A DNA stretch of 64,000 nt from Ilumatobacteraceae bacterium (GTDB lineage Bacteria; Actinomycetota; Acidimicrobiia; Acidimicrobiales; Ilumatobacteraceae): assembly GCA_024643255.1 (NCBI GenBank), contig JAHENF010000001.1, forward strand, positions 59,301 through 123,300, written 5' to 3'. Below the pieces are notes generated by a model that was not told the origin of the DNA, searched no databases, and saw only the letters and a list, made by a program, of their open reading frames with translations. The translations under genes were made by a program, and so were the position numbers. Each line of letters begins with the position of its first letter. Position 1 is the stretch's first letter. Positions 1,407 to 6,765 of the stretch are shown piece by piece.

Positions 1407-2723
1407 TCAGAACCCCAAACGATCGCCGACCGTCGCGAGCAACTCGTCGATCGGCACACGGACCTGTTCGGTCGTGTCACGGTCGCGGATCGTGACCGCG
1501 CGATCGTCGAGCGAGTCGAAGTCGACCGTGACGGCGAGCGGCGTACCGATCTCGTCCTGGCGGCGATACCGCTTGCCGATGTTCTGGGTCTCGTCGTAGT
1601 CGACCATGTAACGCTCGGCCAGCAGCAGGCGGATCTCGTGGGCCAGCGGGGTCAACGTGTCCTTCTTCGACAGCGGGAGCACGGCGACCTTGTAGGGGGC
1701 GAGACGGGGATGCAGTCGCAGCACCGTGCGGGTCTCGTCGTTCACGACGTCCTCGTCGTAGGCCGCGAGCAGGAACGCGGCCATCGTGCGGGTCGCGCCG
1801 GCGGCCGGCTCGATCACGTAGGGGACGTAGCGCTCGTTGGTCTGCGGGTCGAAGTAGTCGAGGCGTTCGCCCGAGTGTTCGGCGTGCTGCTTGAGGTCGT
1901 AGTCCGATCGCTGGGCGATGCCCTCGAGCTCGTCGAAGCCCCACGGGAACGCGAACTCGACGTCGGAGGTGCCGGAGCTGTAGTGCGAGAGCTCGTCGTC
2001 GTCGTGGGCCCGCAGTCGCAACATCTCGGGCGGGATGCCGTGCTCGATGTACCAGTTGAGCCGTTCGTTGCACCAGTACTCGTACCACTGCGGCGATTCC
2101 GCAGGCGGGACGAAGAACTCGAGTTCCATCTGTTCGAACTCACGGGTCCGGAAAATCCAGTTCTGCGGGGTGATCTCGTTGCGGAAGCTCTTGCCGACCT
2201 GGGCGATGCCGAACGGCGGCTTCTTGCGCGACGTCTGCAGCACCTGGCCGAAGTTGGTGAACATGCCCTGGGCCGTCTCCGGTCGGAGATAGGCGTCGGC
2301 ACCGGTGCCCTCGACCGGGCCTGCCTGGGTCTTGAACATCAGGTTGAACTCGCGGGCCTCGGTGAACGCTCCCTTCGAGTTGCAGTTGGGGCACACGTCG
2401 GGATCGTCGAGCTTGTCGAGGCGGAACCGCTGCTTGCACTCGGTGCAGTCGACGAGCGGGTCGGTGAAGTTGGCCAGGTGCCCCGATGCCTGCCACACCT
2501 GGGGCGGGCTCAGGATCGCCGCGTCGATGAGCACGACGTCGTCGCGTTGCTGCACCATCGAGCGCACCCAGGCCTCCTTGACGTTGCGCAGCAGCAGCGA
2601 GCCGAGTGGTCCGTAGTCGTAGGTCGACCGGAAGCCGCCGTAGATCTCCGCCGACTGGTAGACGAAACCCCTGCGCTTGCAGAGGCTGACGATCTGTTCG
2701 AGGTCGGTGGCAGGCATAGACAT
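1407..2723 (-). CDS. glyS: Glycine--tRNA ligase, homodimeric type
   Basis: Class II aminoacyl-tRNA synthetase that charges tRNA-Gly in the cytoplasm; 438 residues, the length of the bacterial alpha-2 (eukaryote-like) enzyme rather than the tetrameric GlyQ/GlyS form. Visible motifs are the N-terminal YDYGPLGSLLL, a CxxC-x14-CxxC zinc-finger insertion (Cys93/96/111/114), RPETAQGMF near 147-155, motif 2 around FRNEITP and REFEQMELEFF near 180-204, and motif 3 EPAAGATRTM. The anticodon-binding domain fills the C-terminal third. Start ATG 2723 gives MSMPATD; a second ATG two codons on is possible. No Shine-Dalgarno is evident, so the mRNA could be leaderless. Confidence 0.96.
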   Translation of the reverse strand: MSMPATDLEQIVSLCKRRGFVYQSAEIYGGFRSTYDYGPLGSLLLRNVKEAWVRSMVQQRDDVVLIDAAILSPPQVWQASGHLANFTDPLVDCTECKQRFRLDKLDDPDVCPNCNSKGAFTEAREFNLMFKTQAGPVEGTGADAYLRPETAQGMFTNFGQVLQTSRKKPPFGIAQVGKSFRNEITPQNWIFRTREFEQMELEFFVPPAESPQWYEYWCNERLNWYIEHGIPPEMLRLRAHDDDELSHYSSGTSDVEFAFPWGFDELEGIAQRSDYDLKQHAEHSGERLDYFDPQTNERYVPYVIEPAAGATRTMAAFLLAAYDEDVVNDETRTVLRLHPRLAPYKVAVLPLSKKDTLTPLAHEIRLLLAERYMVDYDETQNIGKRYRRQDEIGTPLAVTVDFDSLDDRAVTIRDRDTTEQVRVPIDELLATVGDRLGF

Positions 2724-2816: not shown

Positions 2817-3548
2817 TCAGTGCGTCTCGAACATCGCGACGGCCTTGAGGCGCCGCTCGATGTGGAACTCCAGCGCCCGGGTGGCGAGCGACGCCACCTC
2901 GTGGGTGGTCGGCGACTCCTCGCGTGCCAGTGCCGTCACGAGCCGGCCACCGAGGATCTCGCGCATCACCTCGAGCGCGCCAGGACTGATTGCCTGGCCG
3001 GAGCGACACGAGCGGCACAGCACCCCGCCTTCGTTCAGGTCGAACGCGACCAGCGGCGTCTCCGGCTCGGTCTCACCGCAACGCACGCAGCGGTCGAGTT
3101 CGGGCCGCATGCCCTCGTTCGCGAGGAGCTTCCAGTAGAACGCGGCCACGTTCAACGTCGACGGAGTCGTTGCGATCGTCCGCAACACTCCGACCAGCAT
3201 TCGATACAGCTGCGGGTTCGGCTCGCGTTCGAGGGAGAGCTGATCGACGGCCTCGATCGCCGCGAGGCCCTGGGACGCCCGATCGAGCGACGACAGCATC
3301 GGCGAGAGGGGCTCGACCGCCTCGGCCTGGCTCACGATGTCGAGCTCGCGCCCCCGATACAGCAGCAGTCGCACATGGCTCATCGGCTCCAGCCGGGCCC
3401 CGAACTTCGACTTCGTCTTGCGGACGCCCTTGGCGACCGCACGCACCTTGCCATTCTCCGCGGTGTGGAACACCACGATGCGATCGGACTCGCGCAGTTT
3501 GTAGGTGCGCAGCACGACGCCCGTGTCGCGATACAGCTCGCCCGACAC
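2817..3548 (-). CDS. recO: DNA repair protein RecO
   Basis: RecO loads RecA onto SSB-coated single-stranded DNA in the RecFOR pathway. The 243 residues begin with the typical OB-fold N-terminus (YRDTGVVLRTYKLRESDRI), followed by the helical C-terminal part with a zinc site of two CxxC pairs, CVRCGE and CRSC. The start is GTG 3548. In many actinobacteria recO is followed by the undecaprenyl diphosphate synthase gene; here the gene immediately upstream on the same strand (12 bp away) is a degenerate homologue of that synthase, and the intact synthase lies beyond it in opposite orientation. Confidence 0.93.
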   Translation of the reverse strand: MSGELYRDTGVVLRTYKLRESDRIVVFHTAENGKVRAVAKGVRKTKSKFGARLEPMSHVRLLLYRGRELDIVSQAEAVEPLSPMLSSLDRASQGLAAIEAVDQLSLEREPNPQLYRMLVGVLRTIATTPSTLNVAAFYWKLLANEGMRPELDRCVRCGETEPETPLVAFDLNEGGVLCRSCRSGQAISPGALEVMREILGGRLVTALAREESPTTHEVASLATRALEFHIERRLKAVAMFETH

Positions 3549-3560
3549 GATCGGATCGAC

Positions 3561-4172
3561 CTACGTCTCGTCGTCGAGGCCACCGAAGCGGCGCTCACGT
3601 CGGGCGAAGTCGGCAATCGCGTCGACGAGGTCGTCGGGGCGCAGCTCGTGCCACGCCATCGGGTGGAACACCAGCTCGCTGTACGCGAGTTCCCAGACGA
3701 GCGACGGGGGCAGCCGCGTCGAGGGACCGAGCACCACGATCAGGTCGGGCTCACAGTCGGCCGGCGCATACAGGGCCTCCGCGACGGTGGCCTCGTTGAC
3801 CGGCTCATCGTCCTGCAGCCGCTGCATCGCCTCGGCGAACCGTTGGCGACCGTCGCCGCAGGGATCGACGATGACATGACACGACCCCACCTGGCGTTCC
3901 CACCACTTCAGGTCGACCGGGTCCACCCCGGGCTCGAAGGCCCGCAGCGTGAGAAACGACGCCCCGGCCTGGTCGGCGACCTCGCCGAGCCGCTCGACAC
4001 GATCGTCCCAGCGCTGCTCGCCCAGCGCTTCCCAGTCGCGCAGCGTGCCGCCCACCACCATCACGTGGCGCAACAGCTGTCGGGTCGGGTCACCGACGCG
4101 CGCCGACGCCGGACTTCCGCCAGGTGCAGTTGACGTGAACGACGGTGCCACACCTCCATCCTTCCACGCCAC
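3561..4172 (-). CDS. Degenerate cis-prenyltransferase homologue, possible non-catalytic subunit
   Basis: A 203-residue protein with the cis-prenyltransferase (UppS) fold but altered active-site motifs. The first strand HVMVV (36-40) is followed by GGTLRDW where UppS has MDGNGRW, so the catalytic Asp is gone. FLTLRAF (73-79) matches the UppS strand before the FSTENW loop, and PDLIVVLGPST replaces the substrate-binding RTSGExR. In contrast LVWELAYSELVF (158-169) and C-terminal RRERRFGG (191-198) are well preserved. This is the pattern of NgBR/Nus1-like partner subunits: catalytic residues lost, C-terminal RxG (here RFG) kept. It runs divergently from the intact homologue with only 35 bp between starts and lies just upstream of recO. 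Start GTG 4172 is uncertain. Heteromer formation is inference. Confidence 0.75.
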   Translation of the reverse strand: MAWKDGGVAPSFTSTAPGGSPASARVGDPTRQLLRHVMVVGGTLRDWEALGEQRWDDRVERLGEVADQAGASFLTLRAFEPGVDPVDLKWWERQVGSCHVIVDPCGDGRQRFAEAMQRLQDDEPVNEATVAEALYAPADCEPDLIVVLGPSTRLPPSLVWELAYSELVFHPMAWHELRPDDLVDAIADFARRERRFGGLDDET

Positions 4173-4207
4173 GCGCCGCGAGCGTGGGCTGGCTAGCGTA
4201 GGACGCC

Positions 4208-4885
4208 GTGCCGACCGACTTCCCCGACCATGCGTTGCACGTCGCGTGCATCATGGACGGCAACGGCCGGTGGGCCGGCCGGCGCGGCCTCCCCCGCACG
4301 GAGGGCCACACCGAGGGTGAGGAGAACCTCGCCCGCCTCGTGCGCATCGCCGTTCGACGCAACATCGGATGGCTGACCGTCTTCGGATTCTCGACCGAGA
4401 ACTGGCAACGCCCACGTCCCGAGGTCCGCCACATCCTGGGTCTCCACGAGAAGCTGTTCGGACGCGTCGCCGAACTCAACGAGCTCAACGTGCGCATCCA
4501 ATGGATCGGCCGCCCGTTCGATTCACCGATGGCGCGCACTCCGAGGTACGTCCAGCGGGCGATTCGCAAGGCGATCACCGACACGGCCGGGAACACCGGC
4601 ATGGTGCTCACGGTGGCCTTCGACTACGGCGGGCGATCGGAACTCGTCGCGGCCGTCGAAGCCGCCCGTTCGAGCGGCGAGGGCGTGAACGTCGAATCGA
4701 TCGGCGAGCACCTCTACCTTCCGGAACTTCCGCCGGTCGACGTCCTCGTACGCACGAGCGGCGAGCAACGCGTGTCGAACTTCCTGCTCTGGCAGGCAGC
4801 CGGTGCGGCGATCTACTTCACCGACGCGGCGTGGCCCGACTTCGACGAAGCCGAACTCGACGCTGCGTTGGCACTCGCTCGATGA
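4208..4885 (+). CDS. uppS: Polyprenyl diphosphate synthase (cis-prenyltransferase), catalytic subunit
   Basis: Condenses isopentenyl diphosphate units with cis geometry to make the lipid carrier for peptidoglycan and other wall polymers. HVACIMDGNGRW (11-22, Asp17 catalytic), GFSTENW (60-66) and VRTSGEQRVSNFLLW (181-195) are intact. Two normal features are absent. The AYAEL motif carrying the metal-linked Glu (Glu213 in E. coli numbering) reads AGAAI, and the protein stops at DAALALAR, about 20-25 residues short, without the RRFGG tail. Both missing elements are present in the divergent neighbour. Start GTG 4208 precedes the fold by ten residues. The stop overlaps the next ATG (ATGA), so it is translationally coupled to the helicase gene. 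Confidence 0.88.
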   Translation: MPTDFPDHALHVACIMDGNGRWAGRRGLPRTEGHTEGEENLARLVRIAVRRNIGWLTVFGFSTENWQRPRPEVRHILGLHEKLFGRVAELNELNVRIQWIGRPFDSPMARTPRYVQRAIRKAITDTAGNTGMVLTVAFDYGGRSELVAAVEAARSSGEGVNVESIGEHLYLPELPPVDVLVRTSGEQRVSNFLLWQAAGAAIYFTDAAWPDFDEAELDAALALAR

Positions 4886-6765
4886 GCAGCGACCACGTCG
4901 CCACATCGCTCGCCCGCGTCACCGCAGCGCTCAGCAACGCCGAGGACCGTGCCGGGCAGCAGGAGATGGCGGAGTTGGTGACCGACGCGATCGTCGCGAA
5001 GCGCCATCTGATCGTGCAGGCCGGTACCGGAACCGGCAAGACGCTCGCCTATCTCGTGCCCGCGATCGAGGCCGATGCACGCATCGTCGTGGCCACCGCC
5101 ACCAAGGCGCTGCAGGATCAGCTCGCCACCAAGGACCTGCCGTTCCTCGCCGAACACCTCGGCGTCGACTTCGACTGGGCGATCCTGAAGGGGCGCAGCA
5201 ACTACGTCTGCCTCCAGCGTCTGCGTGAGATGAGTGCCGGCGATCAGGGGCAGCTCGAACTCGAGACGATGGCGGTGCAGACCAAGGTCGAGATCAAGCG
5301 CCTCGCCGAGTGGTCGGGCACCACCGAGACCGGCGACATGGCCGAGCTCGACTGGACGCCGTCCGACAATGCCTGGCGGGCCGTCAGCGTCGGCAGCGAC
5401 GAGTGCCCGGGCGCCGATCGGTGCCCGCTGGGCGACCCCTGCTTCGCCGAGCAGGCCCGCCGGCGGGCTGCGGCCGCCGATGTGATCGTCGTCAACACGC
5501 ACCTGTACGGCCTGAACGTGGCCAGCGGCGGCGCGATCCTGCCCGATCACGACGTGGTGGTCTTCGACGAGGCCCACGTACTCGAAGACATCATGAGCGA
5601 CACCGTCGGCGTCGAGATCGCCCCCGGACGATTCACGGCGCTGTCGGGCGTCATCCGACGAATCCTCGACGACCCCCAGCTCATCGGATCGATCGCCGAG
5701 ATCGCCGAGGGCCTGCGCGACGCCCTCACGCCGCACGTCGGAGATCGGCTCTCCACGCCGCTCCCCGACTCGGTCCAGGAGGTGCTGACCGACGCCCGAC
5801 TCCGGCTCGGCAGGGCGAACGAGGTGCTCGTCGCCATCGACACGCCCGTCGAGGACGCGAAGCAGCGCAAGCTGCGCGCCCAGACGATGACCGGTCGAGC
5901 GATCGAACAACTCGACATCGCGATCGAAGGCCGCGACGGGTACGTCGCCTTCGTGTCGGGATCACGGGAGTCGCCCCGCCTCGAGGTCGCGCCGCTCGAC
6001 GTCGGCCCCGCGATGACCGAGGGGGTGTGGTCGCAGCGCACCGCGATCCTGACGAGCGCGACGATTCCGACGTCGCTCGCCGCACGCGTCGGAATCGCGC
6101 CCGACGCCGTGACGGTCGCCGACGTCGGCAGCCCGTTCGACTACGAGGCCAACTCCCTGCTCTATTGCGCGATGCACCTCCCGAACCCGAACAGCGAGGG
6201 GTTCCGACCGGCGGTCCACGACGAGCTGGAGGCCCTGATCACCGCCGCGGGCGGGCGCACCCTGGCGCTGTTCACGAGTTGGCGGTCGATGGACGAAGCG
6301 GCCGAGGCGCTCCGCGATCGGATCGACATGCCGATCCTCACGCAGCGTGACCTTCCCAAGCCGGCGCTGATCAAGGCGTTCTCCGAGAGCGACGAGACCT
6401 GCCTGTTCGCGACGGCCGGGCTGTTCCAGGGCGTCGACGTCCCCGGCCAGACACTGTCGCTCGTGGTGATCGACCGGATCCCGTTTCCACGGCCCGACGA
6501 CCCCTTGTTGAGCGCCCGCCGCGAGCAGCTCGGCCCGACGGCATTCTCCGAGATCGACATCCCGCGGGCCTCGATGATGCTCGCCCAGGCCTGCGGTCGA
6601 CTGATCCGGTCGGCGACCGACCAGGGCGTCGTCGCCGTCATGGACCCGCGCCTCGGCACCGCCCGCTACCGGTGGGACATCGTCAAGGCGCTGCCGCCGA
6701 TGAAGCGGACCCGCAACCGCGCCGACGCGGAGGCCTTCCTCCGCAGCATCGCGACCGTCAGGTGA
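4882..6765 (+). CDS. DinG/XPD-family ATP-dependent DNA helicase
   Basis: A superfamily 2 helicase of 627 residues. Walker A is AGTGTGKT (47-54) and the Walker B DEAH box is at 229-232. Between them are four cysteines (Cys110, 175, 181, 187) in the arrangement NYVC and [14 protein letters not shown], typical of the iron-sulphur cluster of XPD/DinG helicases that unwind 5' to 3'. C-terminal motifs include [20 protein letters not shown] and the motif VI-like QACGRLIR. The start ATG 4882 overlaps the uppS stop. The 3' end overlaps the convergent aldolase by 8 bp. A likely role is R-loop or damaged-DNA processing, known for the family, not shown here. Confidence 0.92.

Follow-up and report, generated by a model that had tools for sequence, protein, structure and literature searches.

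A divergent pair of UppS homologues with complementary residues, a candidate two-subunit polyprenyl diphosphate synthase of the bacterial family Ilumatobacteraceae

The DNA analyzed here, a stretch of 64,000 nucleotides from an Ilumatobacteraceae bacterium (the window), carries two divergently oriented homologues of the cis-prenyltransferase UppS. Subunit A, the putative catalytic member, is encoded on the plus strand (4208..4885, 225 aa), and subunit B, the putative noncatalytic member, on the minus strand (3561..4172, 203 aa); both assignments are based on motifs and AlphaFold2 models. The PF01255 profile matches A over positions 1 to 208 of 219 and B over positions 126 to 219 only. The recO gene (2817..3548, minus strand) lies directly downstream of B and is followed by glyS (1407..2723, minus strand). 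The other neighbor of the pair is a DinG/YoaA-type helicase gene (4882..6765, plus strand) with Helicase_C_2 and DEAD domains, for which the best NCBIfam matches were YoaA (509 bits) and DinG (319 bits), both below the cut-off. Its ATG overlaps the stop codon of A by four bases in the window (ATGA), an arrangement that may couple the translation of the two genes. An earlier interpretation of the letters alone (the sequence-only reading) had placed both open reading frames at these positions and had described complementary defects in their products, and both points were confirmed.

The annotated starts of A and B are divided by a short spacer (4173..4207), and the promoters would lie within it or overlap the ends of the coding sequences. 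Between the matched domains, the spacer is 14 bases in two other loci, L040 and L143; with a divergent spacer this short, the promoters probably overlap coding sequence. A promoter scan of the window detected no sigma-70 consensus within positions 4050 to 4350. To judge from an AAGGA-like site upstream of it, a GTG at 4151 may be the true start of B. The N-terminal W-K-D-G-G-V stretch of B, present in the window and similar in several relatives, resembles a ribosome-binding site preceding a later start.

The residues of A and B were compared across 157 loci selected around A or B, comprising the window, 35 of 37 loci from a sample of the family, one further locus, and 120 more. With matches required to reach 200 bits (A) or 90 bits (B), both genes were present in 149 of the 157 loci, and 8 lacked one partner in the stretch. 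The 149 pairs come from 149 genomes, a selection that favors adjacent pairs because the loci were picked around A or B; since the species are related, the 149 recurrences are not independent events. E. coli residue numbers were checked against an alignment to 1jp3.

Subunit A keeps the catalytic motifs of UppS and lacks its C-terminal end. The window protein contains MDGNGRW (4253..4273, plus strand; D17 corresponds to E. coli D26), FSTENW (4388..4405, plus strand), and RTSGEQR (4751..4771, plus strand; R182 and R188 correspond to E. coli R194 and R200). It has AGAAI (4799..4813, plus strand) in place of the E. coli AYAEL, reading WQAAGAAIYF where E. coli UppS reads WQIAYAELYF, and it terminates in ..LDAALALAR with no RRFGG. 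These features, all reported by the sequence-only reading, are evident in the translation of the window. The equivalents of E. coli D26, N28, R30, H43, S71, E73, N74, W75, and R77 are invariant in 149/149 A proteins, and those of R194, E198, R200, S202, and W207 in the 148/148 with data, among them R182, E186, and R188 of RTSGEQR. By motif, we equate the invariant E64, N65, and R68 of the FSTENW loop with E81, N82, and R85 of human DHDDS. A C-terminal motif of the form R-[F,Y,L,K,M,W,V,I]-G after the WP was found in none of the A proteins (148 with data), which end 15 to 28 residues past that WP. A looser R-x-G string occurs near the end of two A proteins; the example in L054 is out of register with RRFGG. 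In four genomes (G012, G125, G157, and G158), the PF01255 match to A extends a few profile positions beyond the TGA stop, which may be a remnant of a lost tail or chance.

The Tyr corresponding to E. coli Y211 is kept in 0/148 A proteins with data. The Glu corresponding to E213, whose loss from A was part of the sequence-only reading, is missing from the window protein and from 136/148 A proteins in total; the loss is not universal, as 12/148 carry the Glu, 11 of them in an identical FMLWQSxGxEVYF context. The universal defects of A are the missing Tyr, two residues before the Glu site, and the missing RxG tail. The further idea that this Glu is linked to the metal is at most tentative, given these 12 proteins and the human structure, in which, according to the accessible part of PMC7573591, the catalytic Asp is the only protein ligand of Mg. 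With the Asp loop, FSxEN, and RTSGE kept and RxG absent, A bears the hallmark of a catalytic subunit.

Subunit B presents the reverse pattern. The window protein has no MDGN loop and reads VLGPST where RTSGE is expected; it contains WELAYSELVF (WELAYSEL at 3672..3695, minus strand, with W160, E161, Y164, and E166), and its C-terminus, RRERRFGGLDDET, includes RRFGG, the RxG tail (3579..3593, minus strand, with R194, R195, F196, and G197). This division, a lost catalytic Asp loop and RTSGE alongside a retained LAYSEL and RRFGG, had been proposed from the window and recurs in all 149 pairs. Neither MDGN nor RTSGE occurs in any of the 149 B proteins. In contrast, W160, E161, Y164, E166, R192, R194, R195, F196, and G197 are invariant in 149/149, and the last G of RRFGG is kept in 148/149. 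Of the 19 B positions kept in at least 147/149, ten fall within W160 to V168 and R192 to G198; the residues proposed for donation in trans are thus the invariant ones. A C-terminal likeness to PF01255 (126 to 219) together with RxFG in 149/149 is the hallmark of a noncatalytic partner, and the first 33 residues of B, inspected by eye, contain no stretch resembling a membrane anchor. Among 23 UppS proteins of the order (22 from other families and one from the family genome G013), MDGN and Y.E are present in 23/23 and the RxG pattern in 22/23, and the W-E of WELAYSELVF is the form found in 18/23. Neither A nor B has the catalytic loop and RxG together in one chain, the hallmark of homodimeric UppS.

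A and B are arranged head to head, start to start, in 149/149 pairs. All 80 named loci examined contain B, and 76 of them also contain A; the two were divergent in 76/76. The head-to-head pair is present in Ilumatobacter nonamiensis YM16-303 (L078) and in Desertimonas flava SYSU D60003 (L143). In a few genomes the genes are apart: A and B are about 10 kb from each other in G147, 2.3 kb in G080, and unlinked in G017, and both genes persist in all three. At one locus (L100), no A is present in the 4 kb upstream of B. In G029, A and B sit at the termini of two different contigs, apparently because the assembly broke there and not because the genes are separated; either explanation could apply to G221 and G079.

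To determine which genomes carry A, B, or a complete UppS, 61 genomes of the order were sampled: 37 Ilumatobacteraceae and 24 others, one from each of 24 families. All 24 genomes from the other families have one whole-profile PF01255 match (1 to 219). Of the 37 family genomes, 32 have two matches; two (G030 and G036) have B without A, in both cases with B at a contig end; two (G013 and G024) have one complete UppS each; and one (G006, 77% complete) has no match. The window genome (91.6% complete, 100 contigs) and three single-contig genomes of 4.8 to 5.0 Mb (G014, G020, and G154) contain exactly two PF01255 matches each, A and B; the separate complete uppS that would speak against a heteromer was sought in these four genomes and found in none. 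The same four have two or three PF00953 genes each, encoding MraY/WecA-type proteins. MraY/WecA-type glycosyltransferase-4 enzymes use the carrier lipid. Among the matches listed for 198 sampled genomes of the phylum, two candidate split pairs (in G677 and G692) were rejected, each being a single reading frame that the profile matches in two adjacent segments; independent splits may yet exist among the other genomes with two matches.

A wider search used a B profile built from an alignment of 32 proteins, with calls made across the family at E values up to 1e-36. B was detected in 194/221 Ilumatobacteraceae genomes and in 76/79 of those of high quality (completeness of 90% or more, contamination of 5% or less). 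The three high-quality genomes without a called B are G013 and G024, which have a complete UppS, and G094, in which a B containing a stop and unknown bases is flanked by intact A and recO. When 397 genomes of the order were searched, the matches listed comprised 18 family members at 166 bits or more and others at no more than 109.2 bits, which is the level of ordinary complete UppS against this profile. Among the best 80 of 349 B matches, 29 are labelled Ilumatobacter, Ilumatobacteraceae, or Desertimonas; nearly all others carry Acidimicrobiia- or phylum-level labels, and one is labelled Acidobacteria (compare the family genome G129). The A/B pair is a trait of one family, Ilumatobacteraceae (Acidimicrobiales). 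The same division in 149 pairs, together with the frequency of B across the family, shows that the pairing noticed in the window is family-wide and not chance, and among the family genomes examined A and B co-occur with no complete enzyme replacing them. In one draft genome (G084), the A-type matches listed number two, as do the B-type matches counted; this genome may be a mixed bin or may hold a real second pair.

Among the family matches listed, whole-profile PF01255 proteins occur only in G013, G024, G235, and G160, and all four lack B at threshold. Those of G024 (L026/L069), G235 (L171), and G160 (L170) are of a divergent type, with an RTS[SA]E..FFPW[HQ]-like motif and an R-rich end, that is also present in G038 (L027) and G053 (L028); neither recO nor the helicase gene lies in the stretch fetched around it. 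In genus g23, the divergent type is found in two of three genomes and B in none of the three, so this UppS may have replaced the A/B pair there. The divergent UppS of G160 (genus g13, 72% complete) may reflect transfer or contamination, replacement being another option.

The gene neighborhood points to the locus from which the pair arose. In 21/24 genomes of the order's other families, recO lies directly downstream of a complete uppS on the same strand, and in 6/24 the helicase gene is divergently upstream of uppS (flanks of about 1.5 kb). In Ilumatobacteraceae, recO lies directly downstream of B in 33/33 fetched loci, and A is on the helicase side, reading towards the helicase gene. The family genome G013 has the order helicase-uppS-recO-glyS (L068, also L023) with one complete UppS (4946-5752 in L068) that contains both WELAYSELVF and RRFGG; G013, placed in Ilumatobacteraceae, is a candidate for a lineage that precedes the split.

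Phylogenetic trees were built from bacterial rows, with none archaeal or eukaryotic. In the 67-row tree, A forms one clade (100/100) on a long stem (1.46), and the A clade and the order's UppS form a supported set (97/89; the bootstrap had not settled) with the UppS of other classes outside. In the 55-row tree (106 columns), B likewise forms one clade (100/100), nested among the UppS of the order (97/93) on a long stem (2.01). The best reading of these sequence comparisons is that the uppS of the order itself gave rise to A and B through an inverted duplication and the loss of complementary parts, independently of the eukaryotic pair.

The structures of A and B were predicted as single chains. 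The AlphaFold2 model of A (pLDDT 87), a standard UppS fold, matches E. coli UppS 1x06 with a Z score of 27.2 and an rmsd of 2.0 over 214 residues at 42% identity. The model of B (pLDDT 86.5), a reduced version of this fold, matches E. coli UppS 2e9a with a Z score of 12.2 and an rmsd of 3.5 over 154 residues; its best fold match is a plant relative (Z score of 12.5, rmsd of 3.4 over 154 residues). NgBR, the noncatalytic subunit of the human enzyme, is absent from the 50 best fold matches listed for B, which is no argument against kinship of fold. Helices number five in the B model and nine in the A model; between strands 73-77 and 98-103 of B, nothing resembles the helices that A has at 63-92. 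Since the product tunnel of UppS and DHDDS is bounded by helices alpha2 and alpha3 (PMC7573591, accessible part), B probably lacks a full tunnel.

That a noncatalytic partner supplies RxG in eukaryotic NgBR/DHDDS enzymes, on which the sequence-only reading drew, is borne out by the available text of PMC7573591: the NgBR C-terminus reaches across the dimer interface into the active site of DHDDS, where phosphate at the IPP site is bound by RxG backbone nitrogens, and loop E81/N82/K84/R85 of DHDDS pairs with this C-terminus. From this geometry and the loop equivalence given above, the two invariant blocks of B are expected to reach the active site of A. Coupling between A and B was estimated by mean-field DCA on the 149 concatenated pairs (at 80% identity, an effective number of about 65). 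The elements predicted by the human complex to form the interface accounted for 2/20, 9/50, 12/100, and 23/200 of the top couplings, against a base of 5.7%; the corresponding fractions under a shift null were 0.32, 0.042, 0.08, and 0.047. This two- to three-fold interface enrichment, judged by the shift null only, is weak and no more than suggestive.

These results support the heteromer interpretation, and we infer that the heteromer is obligate. In our proposal, Ilumatobacteraceae would have a single polyprenyl (undecaprenyl-type) diphosphate synthase, with A and B as its two obligate subunits. A would bind FPP, IPP, and Mg and perform the chemistry, and B, presumably incapable of catalysis, would dimerize with A using the face by which cis-prenyltransferases ordinarily pair. 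The RRFGG tail of B would cross the interface into the active site of A and complete the IPP site, with the WELAYSE segment packed near the FSTENW loop of A, yielding one active site per dimer instead of two. The pair would have a single origin, a head-to-head duplication of an ancestral uppS that stood upstream of recO. B would descend from the copy that stayed in place and A from the one next to the helicase gene, and each would have lost the parts its partner provided. We assign a probability of roughly 0.83 to this reading of A/B as an obligate two-subunit synthase, the family's sole maker of carrier lipid, with a single origin by duplication.

Alternatively, A could be a self-sufficient homodimeric synthase that works without RxG, with B a regulatory or structural paralogue that tunes it. 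A has the full catalytic set and a model with a confident UppS fold, and RxG is dispensable in places: in the accessible portions of the sources, Methanosarcina MM_0014 is described as active without it (PMC8131916) and yeast Nus1 as having Asn for Arg in its RxG (PMC8131916, PMC7573591). However, MM_0014 has a C-terminal TLGG that can close the active site (PMC8131916), whereas A ends shortly past its WP with no motif of the R-x-G form searched. Moreover, B is invariant exactly at the site-completing residues and has lost the purely catalytic ones, a pattern that argues against a mere tuning role. Of the 77 high-quality family genomes that lack a complete UppS, 76 carry B at threshold and the 77th has the damaged B, which likewise speaks against self-sufficiency of A. 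We consider a self-sufficient A unlikely.

It is still less probable, and indeed scarcely plausible, that B is a degenerating duplicate that will end as a pseudogene, retained only through an operon shared with recO. Of 67 close pairs, 40 were usable for dN/dS, with medians of 0.05 for A and 0.14 for B; mean column identity was 69% for A and 38% for B. B evolves about three times faster, and damaged B genes occur in the draft genomes G028 (an in-frame TAG) and G094. Nevertheless, both genes are under purifying selection: the dN/dS of B is well below 1, reaching 0.42 in the largest of the 40 pairs. The near-invariant positions of B and its presence across the high-quality genomes argue in the same direction, and the only high-quality candidate for loss that was seen is G094, where the stretch is draft sequence with unknown bases.

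A third reading, in which A/B is an accessory enzyme and a nonhomologous or unrecognized enzyme makes the carrier lipid, is equally hard to credit. An actinomycetotal genome of another family (G646, rated 99% complete) has no PF01255 match, perhaps owing to an assembly gap, and both the product and the essentiality of A/B are presumptive. To our knowledge, all bacterial carrier synthases are PF01255 proteins. Against an accessory role, all 14/14 control genomes have PF01255, the three single-contig genomes hold no PF01255 gene other than A and B, and B occupies the place upstream of recO that a complete uppS holds in most relatives. A chimera or assembly artefact is ruled out by recurrence of the pair in named isolates and single-contig genomes.

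Taking A and B as subunits of one enzyme, we consider it likely that a whole family replaced homodimeric UppS by an independently evolved obligate heteromer with one site per dimer and a shared divergent promoter region. Heteromeric cis-prenyltransferases have so far been described from eukaryotes and one archaeon. A/B would offer a bacterial case with close single-gene outgroups, a recognizable ancestral locus, and a one-gene relative within the family, and it is present in the named isolates I. nonamiensis YM16-303 and D. flava SYSU D60003. It could be used to test how a homodimer with a shared active site turns into an obligate heteromer and whether heteromers go with product length. A product over C70 is a trait given for eukaryotic heteromeric members; if our reading is true, A/B would break the textbook link of bacterial, medium-chain enzymes with homodimers and of long-chain enzymes with heteromers. 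Annotation could mislabel the two genes, A as truncated UppS and B as a mere fragment.

Homodimeric cis-prenyltransferases are described for bacteria and plants and heteromeric ones for fungi, metazoa, and plants (PMC7839719, in the part available). We found no bacterial heteromeric cis-prenyltransferase in the openly accessible literature, subscription papers being mostly outside the search. The closest parallel by division of labor is human DHDDS/NgBR (NUS1; PDB 6z1n and 6w2l). Like DHDDS, the catalytic subunit A is similar to UppS; like NgBR, B is cis-prenyltransferase-like in its C-terminus and has RxG, which in NgBR enters the partner's active site (PMC7839719 and PMC7573591, accessible parts). 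Unlike DHDDS, A has no extra C-terminal domain, and unlike the eukaryotic pair, A and B group with Acidimicrobiales UppS, in trees without eukaryotic rows. The B profile matches NUS1 at an E value of 7e-6 versus 2e-21 for bacterial UppS, and the A profile matches DHDDS at 7e-41 versus 3e-62. The closeness to bacterial UppS, the grouping, and the missing anchor and extra domain make an origin separate from that of the human pair likely.

A prokaryotic two-gene enzyme has been described in Methanosarcina mazei, the MM_0618/MM_1083 heteromer (Emi et al. 2019, as cited in PMC8131916), which the accessible part of PMC8131916 says makes C45-50 products, probably destined for the glycosyl carrier. 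Like A/B, it is encoded by two genes in a prokaryote; unlike A/B, it is archaeal, and it is compared here by description only. Bacterial homodimeric UppS (E. coli 1jp3/1x06 and M. tuberculosis Rv2361c), the presumed ancestor of A/B, has the same fold and active site as A. In these homodimers the catalytic loop and RxG reside in one chain, whereas in Ilumatobacteraceae they are divided between two genes.
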